Assembly (NCBI GenBank): GCA_012026925.1
Contig: VEPJ01000146.1
Coordinates: 1-32,308 of the forward strand
Length of the DNA stretch: 32,308 bases
Reading direction: 5' to 3'
DNA from: Gammaproteobacteria bacterium
GTDB lineage: Bacteria > Pseudomonadota > Gammaproteobacteria > Steroidobacterales > Steroidobacteraceae
How positions within the stretch are numbered: position 1 is the first letter of the stretch; each line of letters begins with the position of its first letter. Shown piece by piece: positions 3 through 5,830 of this stretch. The notes under the pieces were generated by a model, which searched no databases, was not told the origin of the DNA, and saw only the letters and a list, made by a program, of their open reading frames with translations. Both the position numbers and the translations under genes were made by a program.

Positions 3-575
3 GCCTGCGAGGGCAACCTCGTGCTGACCGACAGCTGGCCCGGCCAGATGCGCACCGTGTTCGGCGACCACCAGCGCTTCATCGACACGTACTTCAAGAC
101 GTTCCCGGGCCGGTACTTCACCGGCGACGGCGCGCGCCGCGACGAGGACGGCTACTACTGGATCACCGGCCGCGTGGACGACGTGCTCAACGTCGCCGGC
201 CACCGCCTCGGCACGGCGGAGATCGAGAGCGCGCTCGTTGCGCATGCGAAGGTCGCCGAAGCCGCGGTGGTCGGGTGCCCGCACGACATCAAGGGCCAGG
301 GCATCTACGCGTACGTCACGCTGGTGGTGGACGCGACGCCGACCGAGGAACTGCGCAAGGAACTGCGCGAGTGGGTGCGTCGCGAGATCGGGCCGATCGC
401 CACGCCGGACTTCATCCAGTGGGCGCCCGGGCTGCCGAAGACGCGGTCCGGCAAGATCATGCGTCGCATCCTGCGCAAGATCGCCGCCAACGAGTCGGAC
501 CAGCTCGGTGACATCTCGACGCTCGCCGACCCGTCCGTCGTCGCGCAGCTCGTCGACAACCGCATGAACCGCTGA
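3..575 (+). CDS. acs: Acetyl-CoA synthetase, C-terminal part (5' truncated by window edge)
   Basis: The reading frame is open from base 3, so only the last 190 codons are present. The enzyme activates acetate to acetyl-CoA through acetyl-AMP in the cytoplasm. Visible hallmarks are the adenylate-forming core ending [20 protein letters not shown], the hinge region [20 protein letters not shown], and the C-terminal [17 protein letters not shown] segment. The Lys of SGKIMRR is the conserved catalytic lysine, which is the acetylation/Pat control site in known Acs. The GTG at 21 reported in the ORF track is internal and not the start. The acetate-uptake genes yjcH and actP follow on the same strand, which is a common arrangement. 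Identification is secure; the N-terminal domain cannot be assessed. Confidence 0.97.
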
Positions 576-592
576 CGGAAGGGGACAGAAAG

Positions 593-656
593 AGGGGACA
601 GACGAAAAAGGGGACAGTCCCCAATTGGGGACTGTCCCCTTTTTCGTCTGTCCCCT
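593..656. repeat. Perfect 64-bp palindrome of GGGGACAG units (REP-like / terminator)
   Basis: The two 32-bp arms are exact reverse complements, centred on CCCCAATTGGGG. The unit GGGGACAG occurs at 581, 594 and 610, and its complement CTGTCCCC at 632 and 648. The right arm runs into TTTTT at 656-660, so the RNA form would be a long hairpin followed by a short U tract, able to terminate acs transcription. Extra units outside the palindrome suggest a repeat family rather than only a terminator. Palindromes of this kind are typical of REP elements mobilised by RAYT (TnpA-REP) proteins; no such gene lies in this window, so that link is inference. Confidence 0.85.
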
Positions 657-676
657 TTTTCCTGTCGCCTCCTTTC

Positions 677-738
677 CTACGACCAAGGTCGTAGACCGCC
701 GCGCGCCTCGACCCCTCCGCCTACGACCAATGTCGCAG
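677..738. promoter_or_regulatory. Two operator-like dyads upstream of yjcH-actP
   Basis: CTACGACCAAGGTCGTAG (677-694) has exact 8-bp arms around AA. CTACGACCAATGTCGCAG (721-738) is a degenerate second copy with an identical left half. Their starts are 44 bp apart, about four helical turns, so a regulator would bind both on one face of the DNA. A -10-like TAGATT follows at 761-766, about 45 nt before the DUF485 start. Acetate uptake genes in related bacteria are activated by LuxR-type response regulators (CrbR/ErdR family); assigning these sites to such a protein is inference. The dyads themselves are directly visible. Confidence 0.6.
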
Positions 739-811
739 TGGGCGCGCACCGGGCCCTTGCTAGATTCCGCCCACGCAGTCCGCGTCGGCGACTACAAACG
801 GGGGACTATTC

Positions 812-1132
812 ATGGCCACAGCGCCCAAGATCGACTGGAATGCGGTGATTGCCGATCCGCGCTTCCAGGCTCTGCACCGCAGAAAGCAGGGGTTCCTCAC
901 GGGACTCATGATTTTCTCCGTGGTGTTCTACTTCCTGCTGCCGATCGGCGCCGCCTATTTCCAGGACCTGTTCAAGACCAAGGTCTGGGGCGTCGTCAAT
1001 TTCGGCATCCTGTTCGCGCTGCTCCAGTTCGTGGTCGCCTGGGGAGTCGCGATCTATTACTCCCGCGTCGCGAACCGCGACTTCGACCGCATGGCCCGCG
1101 AGATCGCGGCCGACTACGAGAAGGGGGGCTGA
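812..1132 (+). CDS. yjcH: DUF485 inner-membrane protein (YjcH-like)
   Basis: This 106-residue protein has two hydrophobic segments (about residues 29-51 and 63-83) and charged ends. The N-terminal DPRFQALHRRKQGFL is typical of DUF485. Members are encoded directly before ActP acetate permeases and are thought to assist them, although their biochemical role is unproven. The ATG at 812 has the purine-rich GGGGGA about 7 nt upstream. The stop lies 3 nt before the actP start, so the two are almost certainly cotranscribed. Expression probably depends on the paired dyads at 677-738. Family assignment is firm; the exact function is unknown. Confidence 0.9.
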   Translation: MATAPKIDWNAVIADPRFQALHRRKQGFLTGLMIFSVVFYFLLPIGAAYFQDLFKTKVWGVVNFGILFALLQFVVAWGVAIYYSRVANRDFDRMAREIAADYEKGG

Positions 1133-1135
1133 GCC

Positions 1136-3046
1136 ATGCTGACTTCGAATCGACGACTCGTCGTCTACGGGATCGCGGGCGCGCTCGCCATCGGCAGCGG
1201 CGCGGCGTTCGCGCAGGGTGCGGTCGCCGCGCAGTATCGCTGGCTGACGTTCGCGGTGTTCGCGGCCATCATCTGCGTGACGATGTACGTCACGTACCTG
1301 GCCGCCAAGCGCGTGAAGTCGGCCTCCGACTTCTACACCGCCGGCGGCGGGGTATCGGGACTGCAGAACGGCTGGGCCATTGCGGGTGACTATCTCTCCG
1401 CGGCTTCCTTCCTCGGCATCGCGGGCCTGATCTCGCAGTACGGCTACGACGGGTTCATGTACTCGGTCGGCTGGCTCGTCGCATACATCACGGTGCTGCT
1501 GGTGATCGCGGAGCCCTGCCGCAACATCGGCAAGTACACGCTGCCGGACATCCTGGCCTACCGCAACAACCCGAAGGCGATGCGCATCGTCGGCGCGATC
1601 TCGGTCGTCACGGTCTCGACGTTCTACCTGACGGCGCAGATGGTCGGCGGCGGCGTGCTCGTGAAGACGCTGATCGGCATCGACTACGAGATCTCGGTGA
1701 TGGCGGTCGGCGTCCTGATGCTCGCCTACGTGCTGTTCGGCGGCATGGTCGCGACGACCTGGGTGCAGATCATCAAGGCCGTCCTGCTGGTGATCGCGTC
1801 GCTCGTGCTCGTGATGCTGGTGTGGACGCCCTACGGGTTCTCGCTGCCGGCCTTCCTCGCCGACGTGGTCGGTGACACGAAGGTGCAGGCGAAGGTGGCG
1901 GGCCTGCTCGGCGATGCAGCGAAGAACATGACGCCCCAGGAACTTGGGCAGCGCTTCCTCGAGCCCGGCCTGTACTTCAAGGCGCCGATCGACCAGATCT
2001 CGCTCGGCATGGCGCTCGTGTTCGGAACGGCGGGCCTGCCGCACATCCTGATGCGGTTCTTCACCGTGCCCACGGCGCAGCAGGCGCGCAAATCGGTCGT
2101 CTGGGCCATGGCGATCATCGGCGGCTTCTACGTGCTGACGCTGTTCCTCGGCTTCGGCGCAGCCAAGGAAGTCGGCCCGGGCGTGATCGCGTCGATCGAC
2201 GCGGGCGGCAACATGGCAGGCCCGCTGCTCGCGCAGCACCTCGGCGGAGGTCCGGACTCGTTCCTCGGCAATTTCATGCTGGCGTTCGTGTCCGCAGTGG
2301 CCTTCGCGACGATCGTAGCGGTGGTGGCGGGGCTCGTGCTCGCGTCGGCATCGGCGATCGCCCACGACCTGTACGTCGGCGTGTATCACGGCGGCGACAT
2401 CGTTCCGCCGCAGCAGCAGGTCCGCGCTGCGCGCATTGCGACGGTCATCGTGGGCGCCGTGTCGATCTCGATCGGCATCGCGGCGAAGGGCCAGAACGTG
2501 GCGCACCTGGTGGCGCTCGCCTTCGCGGTGGCGGCCTCGGCGAATTTCCCGTGCGTCCTGCTCACGATGTACTGGAGACGCTGCAACACCGGCGGCATCG
2601 TGCTCGGCATGGTCGTCGGCACGGTCGCAGCGGTCGGCCTGACGCTGGTGTCGCCGAACCTGACCTACCCGAAGGCGGTCCGCGCGGCTTCGCAGAAGGT
2701 ACTGGACGGCGAGGCGGCGAAGCGCAGCGCGATCGAGGCCGCACTGGCGTCCGGCGACGCCGCGGCGATCGAAAAGGCCACGGTCGACCAGAAGGCACTC
2801 GACAAGGCCGTGACCAAGGCCAAGGACGACATGAAGAAGGTCGAGGGCAAGGAAGTGTCGATCATGGGACTCGAGGAGCCGCTGTTCAAGCTCAAGAACC
2901 CGGGCATCATCTCGATCCCGCTCGGGTTCCTGGCGGTGCTGCTCGGCGCGCTGCTCTTCCGCGACAAGCGCTCGGAGGAGTTGTGGCCGGAGGTCTATGC
3001 CCGCCAGAACACCGGCATCCTGGCGTCGAAGGCCACGAGCCACTGA
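1136..3046 (+). CDS. actP: Cation/acetate symporter, ActP type (sodium:solute symporter family)
   Basis: This 636-residue polytopic membrane protein should take up acetate or similar short carboxylates with Na+ or H+. Signature stretches shared with E. coli ActP include DFYTAGGGVSGLQNGWAIAG, DYLSAASFLGI, MVATTWVQIIKAVLL and GTAGLPHILMRFFTV. A signal-like hydrophobic start ending AAFAQ precedes the first core helix, as in ActP. The length exceeds the roughly 550 residues of E. coli ActP, mainly because of a charged, Ala/Lys-rich insertion at about residues 508-580 between two late membrane helices. The ATG follows the yjcH stop by 3 nt, and AAGGGGGGC at the yjcH end can serve as ribosome binding site. 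Substrate specificity is inferred from family and neighbours. Confidence 0.93.
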   Translation: MLTSNRRLVVYGIAGALAIGSGAAFAQGAVAAQYRWLTFAVFAAIICVTMYVTYLAAKRVKSASDFYTAGGGVSGLQNGWAIAGDYLSAASFLGIAGLISQYGYDGFMYSVGWLVAYITVLLVIAEPCRNIGKYTLPDILAYRNNPKAMRIVGAISVVTVSTFYLTAQMVGGGVLVKTLIGIDYEISVMAVGVLMLAYVLFGGMVATTWVQIIKAVLLVIASLVLVMLVWTPYGFSLPAFLADVVGDTKVQAKVAGLLGDAAKNMTPQELGQRFLEPGLYFKAPIDQISLGMALVFGTAGLPHILMRFFTVPTAQQARKSVVWAMAIIGGFYVLTLFLGFGAAKEVGPGVIASIDAGGNMAGPLLAQHLGGGPDSFLGNFMLAFVSAVAFATIVAVVAGLVLASASAIAHDLYVGVYHGGDIVPPQQQVRAARIATVIVGAVSISIGIAAKGQNVAHLVALAFAVAASANFPCVLLTMYWRRCNTGGIVLGMVVGTVAAVGLTLVSPNLTYPKAVRAASQKVLDGEAAKRSAIEAALASGDAAAIEKATVDQKALDKAVTKAKDDMKKVEGKEVSIMGLEEPLFKLKNPGIISIPLGFLAVLLGALLFRDKRSEELWPEVYARQNTGILASKATSH

Positions 3047-3165: not shown

Positions 3166-5073
3166 ATGGCGACCCCGGTGCTCATCGCCGAGACGACCGT
3201 CCGCTTCCTGCGGTCGCACGTGCCGTTCTCGCGCATGGCGCGCAAGGACCTCGAGTTCGTCGCGGAACGCGTCAAGCTCGCGTACTTCCCGGTAGGCACG
3301 ACGATCGTCGACCCGGCGCACGGCGTTGCCGAGCAGCTCCACATCATCCAGCGCGGCCACGTCCGCGTTCACAACACGACGACGGCGTCCGACGACGAGG
3401 TGCGCGGCCCGGGCGAGTGCTTCCCGGTCGCGGCGCTCGCGGCCGGCACTGCGGGTGCCCGGCGCTTCGAGGCCACCGAGGACGTGTTCTGCTACCAGCT
3501 GACCCGCGAGGACTTCGAGTCGCTGCGCCTGCGCTCCGTGCCGTTCGCGGAGTACTGCACGGCGGTGCTCGAGAGCATCGTGCAGCAGTCGCTCGGGCAG
3601 CTGCGCCAGAACTTCAGCCATCGCGCAGTCGAGCAGCGGACCCTGCTCGAGCCGCTCAAGGTCCTCGTCCGCCGCGACCCCGTGTTCTGCGAAACGACGA
3701 CCACGGTTCGCGAGGCGCTCGAGGCGATGCGCCAGGAACGGATCGGCACGATCGCCGTCGTCGACGGGCAGCGTCGCCCGGGCGGCATCTTCACGCTGAC
3801 CGACCTGATGGATCGCGTCGTGCTGCCGGGCGTGGACCTCTCAGCCTCCGTGGCCGAGGTGATGACGCCTGCGCCCGGTACGCTGGACGAGCTCGCGACC
3901 GCGCAGGAGGCGCTGTCCCTCATGGCGCAGCTCGGCTACCACCAGCTCATGGTCACGCGCGAGAACAGGCTCGTGGGCGTGGTCTCCGAGCGCGACCTGT
4001 TCGCGCTGCAGCGCGTGACGATGCGCAACATCATGCAGTCGATCCGGCTGTCCCGCGACCTGACGGGCCTGCAGCGCGCGCGACGCGACATCGACGCCCT
4101 CACCGACAACCTCATCGCGCAGGGCGCGGCGGCCGAGCCGCTCACGCACACGATCACCGCGCTCAACGACGCGCTCGCGGACCGGCTGTTCGGGCTGCTG
4201 GCACCGCGCTTCGAGCTCGACGGCATCGACTGGTGCTGGCTGTCCGTCGGCAGCGAAGGGCGCCGTGAGCAGACCGTCGCGACGGACCAGGACAATGCGA
4301 TCCTGTTCGACTGCGAGGCCGCGGACCGGGACGCGGTGCGGCAGCGCCTGCTGCTCTATGCACGGGCTGCGAACGACGCGCTGGCAGAACTCGGCTTCCC
4401 GTTGTGCACGGGCGACATCATGGCGCGCAACCCGGACCATTGCCTGGCGGCCGAGGAATGGCGGGCCCGATTCGCCGTGTGGATCCGCGAGCCGACACCG
4501 GAGGCGTTGCTGCAGGCGAACATCTTCTTCGATTTTCGCGCGCTGTTCGGCAACCTGGCGCTCGGCGAGGGCCTGCGCAACTGGCTCATGGGAGTGACGC
4601 CGGAGAACCGGCTCTTCCAGCGCCTGCTCGTCGCGAACGCGCTGCAGGCCGAGCCGCCGCTCGGCATGATCCGCAGCTTCAGGACGGACGACGGCGAGCA
4701 CGCGGGCACGATCGACCTCAAGACCCACGGCACGCGCATCTTCGTGGACGCCGCGCGCGCGTTCGCGCTCGCTCTCGGCATCGCGGACACCAACACGGCG
4801 CAGCGCCTCCGTCTCGCGGGACGGCGTCTCAACATCGACGAGCGCGAGACCGACTCGGCGGTCGAGGCCTACCATTTCCTGCAGATGCTGCGGCTGCGCG
4901 CGCAGCGCGATGCGCTGGAGCCCGACAGGGGCGACGCGGCCGAGCGGCCGCGGACCGTCGTCAACCGCATCGACCCGTACACGCTGAACGACCTCGACAA
5001 GCGGATGCTGAAGGAAGCGTTCCGCCAGGCGCGCTCGCTGCAGCAGCGCCTCGAGCAGACCGTCGGCCAGTGA
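3166..5073 (+). CDS. cNMP-binding / CBS-pair / DUF294 nucleotidyltransferase-like signalling protein
   Basis: This is a 635-residue soluble protein. Residues about 12-130 form a cyclic-nucleotide-binding-like fold. Residues 166-282 form a CBS pair, with repeats ending IFTLTDLMDR and VVSERDLFAL. Residues about 288-445 are a DUF294 nucleotidyltransferase-like domain with GSEGRREQT (from residue 362) and the metal-binding-type D374-Q-D376 of TDQDNAILFD. The remainder is the helical DUF294 C-terminal domain. The layout recalls the GlnD uridylyltransferase core, but the substrate is not known. In Pseudomonas the same protein is encoded beside the acetate symporter and an exonuclease, as here, suggesting a role linked to carbon or energy state. 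It sits 119 bp after actP and 25 bp before the exonuclease gene. Confidence 0.88.
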   Translation: MATPVLIAETTVRFLRSHVPFSRMARKDLEFVAERVKLAYFPVGTTIVDPAHGVAEQLHIIQRGHVRVHNTTTASDDEVRGPGECFPVAALAAGTAGARRFEATEDVFCYQLTREDFESLRLRSVPFAEYCTAVLESIVQQSLGQLRQNFSHRAVEQRTLLEPLKVLVRRDPVFCETTTTVREALEAMRQERIGTIAVVDGQRRPGGIFTLTDLMDRVVLPGVDLSASVAEVMTPAPGTLDELATAQEALSLMAQLGYHQLMVTRENRLVGVVSERDLFALQRVTMRNIMQSIRLSRDLTGLQRARRDIDALTDNLIAQGAAAEPLTHTITALNDALADRLFGLLAPRFELDGIDWCWLSVGSEGRREQTVATDQDNAILFDCEAADRDAVRQRLLLYARAANDALAELGFPLCTGDIMARNPDHCLAAEEWRARFAVWIREPTPEALLQANIFFDFRALFGNLALGEGLRNWLMGVTPENRLFQRLLVANALQAEPPLGMIRSFRTDDGEHAGTIDLKTHGTRIFVDAARAFALALGIADTNTAQRLRLAGRRLNIDERETDSAVEAYHFLQMLRLRAQRDALEPDRGDAAERPRTVVNRIDPYTLNDLDKRMLKEAFRQARSLQQRLEQTVGQ

Positions 5074-5098: not shown

Positions 5099-5830
5099 AT
5101 GCGGTTGCCATTCCAGCGCTCGCTAGAGGCGCGACGCACGCGGCGGGCCCTGCCGCCTGCCGTGCGGGACGGCCTGCGCCTGCTGCGGATCCGCGCCCGC
5201 GAGCGGATTGCCGAGGAGCGCTGGAGCGACTCGGGCCTGCTGTCGCTGGCGCGCTTCGTGGCCCTCGATCTCGAGACGACCGGGCCGAACATGCACGCGG
5301 ACCGGATCATCTCGATCGGCGCGGTGGCGGTCGCAGCCCGGGCCATCCGTCACGACGACGCATTCGAGGTCGTCGTGCGGCAGGAGCGCGAGAGCGGCGT
5401 CGACAACATCCTGATCCACCAGATCGGCGGGCAGGAGCAGCGCGGCGGGGCGGACCCGGTGGGCGCGCTGGTCTCGTTCCTGCGGTACCTCGACGGCGCC
5501 GTGGCGGTCGCGTTTCGCGCGGAGTTCGACGCGACGGTCCTGGAGCGCGAACTGCGCGCCTGGCTCGGCATCCGGGTCGGGGTCCGGTTCCTCGACCTCG
5601 CGGCCATCCTTCCGGCACTGCTGCCCGGCACGCCCAACGATTCCCTCGACGACTGGGCGCGGCACTGCGGGCTGCCGCCGATCGGCCGCCACCATGCGAT
5701 TGCGGACGCCTACGCAAACGCGCAATTGCTGCTGATCGCGCTGGAACGCGCGCAGCGGCTCGGATTGACGACGACCGCCGACCTGATCGCCCTCGAGAAA
5801 TCGCAGCGTTGGCTCGGGCGCAGGCGCTGA
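5099..5830 (+). CDS. 3'-5' exonuclease, DnaQ-like (DEDDh)
   Basis: This 243-residue protein has a basic N-terminal extension (about 50 residues) followed by an exonuclease domain. Motif Exo I is ALDLETTGP with D57 and E59, Exo II is AEFDATVL with D144, and Exo III is HHAIADA with H198 and D203. All four acidic metal ligands and the catalytic His are therefore present, which predicts an active DEDDh nuclease related to the DNA polymerase III epsilon subunit. No polymerase-binding tail is recognisable, so it is probably a free-standing nuclease. It lies 25 bp after the DUF294 gene, likely in the same operon, with AAGG upstream of the ATG. The partnership is conserved in Pseudomonas-type actP loci, but its physiological meaning is unknown. 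Confidence 0.88.
   Translation: MRLPFQRSLEARRTRRALPPAVRDGLRLLRIRARERIAEERWSDSGLLSLARFVALDLETTGPNMHADRIISIGAVAVAARAIRHDDAFEVVVRQERESGVDNILIHQIGGQEQRGGADPVGALVSFLRYLDGAVAVAFRAEFDATVLERELRAWLGIRVGVRFLDLAAILPALLPGTPNDSLDDWARHCGLPPIGRHHAIADAYANAQLLLIALERAQRLGLTTTADLIALEKSQRWLGRRR

Follow-up and report, generated by a model that had tools for sequence, protein, structure and literature searches.

Closest described systems

In enterobacteria, regulation of acs and actP is CRP-dependent. The CbrA/CbrB system of Pseudomonas combines an SLC5-fused histidine kinase with CbrB, an activator of the NtrC type. The closest counterpart of the locus presented here is the CrbS/CrbR system (MxtR/ErdR, AcsS/AcsR) of Pseudomonas, Vibrio, Shewanella and Xanthomonas, which targets acs, actP and a CBS/DUF294 gene through ACTU sites with the core GAC-n4-GTC. 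The ACTU site of P. fluorescens acs is positioned at -52 to -36, and the published system works with one such site (PMC5715377). Examples of ACTU sites are TACGACTAAAGTCTAAA and TAATACTAAGGTCGTCT, and the sites are given in Table 4 of that study (PMC5715377). The CBS/DUF294 genes controlled by CrbR in Pseudomonas are PFLU5625 and PP_0354 (Table 3), and genes of the PFLU5625 type belong to the CrbR regulon and are co-transcribed with actP in several species (PMC5715377). The same study detected no ACTU motif in enterobacteria (PMC5715377). Gel shifts have been reported for AcsR of Vibrio vulnificus, and the part of the text searched contains no mapped site.

Organization of the acs-yjcH-actP locus

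The window, which is the whole stretch of 32,308 nucleotides that was analysed, begins within acs and continues into a symporter gene cluster:

3..575, plus strand: 3' part of acs (acetyl-CoA synthetase), NCBIfam acetate--CoA ligase, profile positions about 446-646; the contig begins inside the gene
577..671, no strand assigned: GGGGACAGTCCCC palindrome, a terminator-like hairpin on both strands (RNA fold -85.9 kcal/mol, z -14.8)
812..1132, plus strand: yjcH, DUF485 membrane protein (Pfam DUF485, 5e-27)
1136..3046, plus strand: actP, sodium/acetate symporter (Pfam SSF, 7e-93; the sole Pfam SSF match in the assembly)
3166..5073, plus strand: cNMP-binding/CBS/DUF294 protein of the PFLU5625/PP_0354 type (Pfam DUF294, DUF294_C, CBS, cNMP_binding)
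5099..5830, plus strand: DnaQ-type 3'-5' exonuclease, a usual neighbour in the cluster (Pfam RNase_T, 1e-18)

The gene order including the exonuclease is repeated in loci L064, L079 and L148. The acs fragment is 92% identical to Acs of G003, a genome of the same genus. The assembly to which the window belongs (G000) has a completeness of 72%, and the acs promoter is missing from it because the contig starts inside the gene. Two AMP-ligase genes, on contigs C189 and C122, were considered as sources of the absent 5' portion of acs and rejected, with identities to G003 Acs of 43% and 36%, respectively. The nearly perfect palindrome at 577-671 is made of GGGGACAGTCCCC repeats and separates acs from the yjcH promoter and its dyads. 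The corresponding interval of G003 lacks it, and the rest of the G000 assembly contains only weak, partial copies. The element is possibly a small mobile palindrome that serves as a terminator.

Two ACTU-like dyads and an extended -10 element precede yjcH

The interval from the acs stop (575) to the yjcH start (812) contains two dyads and a promoter element:

677-694, no strand assigned: distal ACTU-like dyad CTACGACCAAGGTCGTAG, a perfect 8-2-8 repeat of 18 bp, centred about -88 from the predicted start
721-738, no strand assigned: proximal ACTU-like dyad CTACGACCAATGTCGCAG, 14/16 with two mismatches, centred about -43.5
758-766, plus strand: extended -10 element TGCTAGATT, in which TG precedes the hexamer TAGATT (761-766); no good -35

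An earlier note on this DNA had described an exact 18-bp dyad and a degenerate copy starting 44 bp apart, with a possible -10 box just downstream, and these observations are borne out. With up to three mismatches to the dyad allowed, the 32-kb window contains two matches against 0.16 expected, and one of 100 dinucleotide shuffles reached two. Perfect 8-2-8 dyads occur five times in the window, so that one alone is not rare; a second copy of at least 14/16 in the same intergenic region has a p of about 1.5e-4 by shuffling. The degenerate consensus TNNGACYWWDGTCKNA matches the two dyads alone in the 3.14-Mb assembly. The genome-wide search proposed in the note thus returns no further copies from an assembly in which the acs promoter is missing, and the expected copies near acetate genes were found in relatives, before acs, actP or a second type of symporter. 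A dyad with two mismatches, TTACGACGAAGGTCGTAG, is located at L002 1501-1518 (G000:C21:31082-31099), shortly 5' of a minus-strand formate dehydrogenase-like gene.

Both dyads fit the ACTU form TAcGACcnnnGTCgnA, an imperfect inverted repeat, of which they are near-ideal versions. They are placed directly 5' of yjcH-actP-CBS/DUF294, the location typical of ACTU sites, and the proximal dyad fits the ACTU position of about -52 to -36 beside a sigma-70 promoter when the start is predicted from TAGATT. This start is at about 773, taken as ~7 bp past the conserved hexamer; a consensus scan identified no full sigma-70 promoter at yjcH. Because the proximal centre at -43.5 is equal to the published ACTU position and the distal centre is at -88, we assign the role of conserved core operator to the degenerate copy and that of auxiliary upstream site to the perfect one.

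The core promoter is conserved among relatives. GACCAATGTC and TAGATT are invariant, the former exactly 36 bp ahead of the -10, in five promoters of the same genus (G000, G002, G003, G006 and G008), whose 26-bp spacers share 13 to 21 positions with that of the window. G002 and G008 have the proximal site only, as TTAGACCAATGTCTCA. Nine promoters from several genera share a distance of exactly 36 bp from the proximal GAC to the TA of the -10 element; they include those of yjcH in G000, G002 and G008, of the DUF4212-symporter in G003, G193 and G194, and of acs in L062. The composite pattern GACYWWDGTC-N26-TANNNT also matches two promoters from other families, that of DUF4212 in G524 and that of acs in G377; a second 36-bp match in G524 faces a divergent CrbS-like gene. 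In its own genome the pattern occurs once, at the yjcH promoter (721-766), and it provides a very specific search pattern for acetate-switch promoters.

CrbR-like regulator and CrbS-like kinase

The genome encodes a candidate reader of the dyads on another contig (G000:C50:31815-32489). The protein of 225 residues is composed of a receiver (PF00072) and a LuxR-type helix-turn-helix domain (PF00196). Its best NCBIfam match is RR_TF_ErdR with 229 bits, followed by NarL with 110. The score is below the curated ErdR cut-off of 390 bits, which belongs to an 'exception' model, as would be the case for a distant relative, and we therefore call the protein CrbR-like. Another candidate, L016, has the best GerE match but was rejected as CrbR because it is of the NarL type and its neighbouring kinase is a different one.

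A CrbS-like kinase of 1169 residues is encoded adjacent and convergent to the CrbR-like gene, and was identified by reading this neighbourhood. It is formed by an SLC5-type N-terminus followed by PAS_7, HisKA, HATPase_c and Response_reg domains, which is the architecture of CrbS. In a phmmer search, residues 8-604 aligned with the SLC5-type histidine kinase of PDB entry 10ed (2e-63). A search of the genome for CrbS with the Pfam SSF model retrieved ActP only, since the SLC5 part of the kinase scores below the model and obtained no score from it. The crbS-crbR pair is unlinked to acs-actP in the assembly, and no ACTU site was seen 5' of its crbS. Adjacent crbS-crbR pairs are present in G002, G007 and G008, and one is partly visible at a contig edge of G003.

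The locus resembles the CrbS/CrbR system in the GAC-n4-GTC core and its distance from the start site, in the target genes, and in the presence of both CrbS-like and CrbR-like genes. It differs in the second, perfect dyad at about -88, in the GC-rich Steroidobacteraceae-type host, and in the adjacent and convergent arrangement of crbS and crbR. Like CbrA, the kinase is an SLC5-fused histidine kinase. The differences from CbrA/CbrB lie in the regulator, which is of the LuxR type, and in the receiver domain of the kinase. The controlled genes acs-yjcH-actP are those of enterobacteria, whereas the operators are ACTU-like.

The dyads accompany the regulator in related genomes. Within the family, genomes that have both a close yjcH and the regulator (G000, G002, G008 and G013) have dyads before yjcH, and none were found in those with a close yjcH that lack the regulator (G017, G021, G030 and G036). 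Three dyads separate the divergent crbR and yjcH of G013. In L062, acs is divergent from yjcH and is itself followed by crbR, and a dyad lies in the acs-yjcH interval. In a survey of 80 yjcH loci, six had canonical sites, which in five cases lie between acs and yjcH; most of the 80 are from betaproteobacteria, with neither dyads nor a nearby regulator.

Proposed mechanism and function of the second site

We propose that the dyads are ACTU sites for a dimer of the CrbR/ErdR-like response regulator of this genome and that they form part of a CrbR-dependent promoter, because of the ACTU match in sequence and position, the conservation, and the co-occurrence of the regulator (probability about 0.88). 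The sequences, their positions and conservation, and the CrbS-like and CrbR-like genes are observed; CrbR binding, activation, the extent of the operon and any cooperation between the dyads are inferred. Upon activation of CrbS in the acetate switch, phospho-CrbR would occupy the proximal site near -43.5 and contact RNA polymerase at the extended -10 promoter, which has no usable -35. This would switch on yjcH-actP and probably also the downstream genes for the CBS/DUF294 protein and the exonuclease. The perfect dyad, located 44 bp further upstream, may serve as another CrbR site and increase occupancy or activation.

Alternatively, the proximal dyad alone may be functional, with the distal one a drifting or redundant copy of little effect, which we consider possible but somewhat doubtful. 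The distal site is absent from the yjcH promoters of G002 and G008, its copy in G006 is degenerate and at 45 bp, and one ACTU site suffices in the published system. Against this, the distal dyad is perfect in the window and intact in G003 of the same genus at 44 bp, despite only 26/44 matches between the two genomes in the 44 bases 5' of the proximal core. Furthermore, acs or symporter promoters with at least two sites are found repeatedly, in G013, G119/L085, G031, G193, G194 and G377. The distances between such sites bear on the possibility that two CrbR dimers bind cooperatively on one face of the DNA and require the 44-bp spacing. This spacing is shared by G000, G003 and the acs promoter of G031, where the spacer is unrelated, but it is 28 bp in G119/L085, 33 bp at G377 acs, 39 bp in G193 and G194, and 40 and 60 bp in G013, and the tandem spacings have no common 10.5-bp helical phase (Rayleigh p 0.77). 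We therefore regard required same-face cooperation as unlikely: tandem ACTU sites recur, and the several different spacings do not support a same-face rule. The earlier note had placed both dyads on the same helical face and read this as cooperative binding by a dimeric activator. The same-face placement holds only approximately in the window, where 44 bp makes 4.19 helical turns of 10.5 bp each and leaves the dyads about 69 degrees out of phase, and it is not supported as a rule, as spacing and phase differ among lineages and two same-genus species have the proximal site only.

The dyads might also be read by a different dimeric regulator, either another LuxR/NarL-type protein or a TetR/GntR-type repressor. 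Many dimeric regulators typically bind perfect dyads, and the genome encodes several other GerE-domain proteins; however, the ACTU match by both sequence and position and the co-occurring CrbR-like gene, including a divergent crbR-yjcH pair with dyads between, make this very improbable. The LuxR-type regulator of the CrbR/ErdR kind suggested in the earlier note is the best-supported reader, given the ACTU match, the CrbR-like gene next to a CrbS-like kinase, and dyads that track the regulator in relatives. The locus is thus well supported, as judged from sequence, as a new example of a known switch, a putative CrbR-dependent promoter with a second ACTU site. It extends the CrbS/CrbR switch and the ACTU motif to Steroidobacteraceae-type bacteria known mainly from metagenomes.

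The tandem spacings (G013, G119, G193, G377, G000 and G031) cluster weakly at multiples of ~5.25 bp, a half turn; this post hoc observation is based on eight values, including a G524 pair that belongs to two divergent promoters and is no true tandem. Many class-wide tandem matches (G511, G456 and G272) were set aside as repeats or as being away from acetate genes.

Possible exchange of the symporter operon behind the promoter

In G003 (L162 7103-8353, G003:C218) and G006 (L197, G006:C296), the acs-linked promoter precedes a DUF4212 gene that stands in place of yjcH-actP. The DUF4212 gene of G003 is followed by a VC_2705-type symporter, and yjcH was not detected in either genome. The window resembles G003 and G006 in its promoter down to the -10 element, and G002 and G008 in its genes. 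In these few incomplete genomes, the arrangement resembles the outcome of an operon swap in which the promoter was retained, and suggests that one CrbR promoter was kept while the transporter operon behind it was exchanged between sister species.

A tandem arrangement is not described in the ACTU literature examined. We speculate, at somewhat less than even odds, that the tandem ACTU array is a recurring and tunable form of the CrbR switch, in which the invariant proximal site fixes activation and variably spaced upstream sites set sensitivity. Within the genus, the switch would retain its linkage to acs, with the yjcH-actP and DUF4212-symporter operons exchanged for one another under its control.

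Two ACTU-like sites were also observed in a distant gammaproteobacterium (L182/G524:C2:1099586-1099713), at divergent promoters of a CrbS-like kinase and a DUF4212-symporter, each 36 bp from a TAG. In G007, a TAG follows 36 bp 3' of an ACTU-like site (L158 1501-1545, G007:C47:8122-8166) that is situated immediately ahead of a gene for an acetyl-CoA acetyltransferase (thiolase), a possible further target of CrbR.
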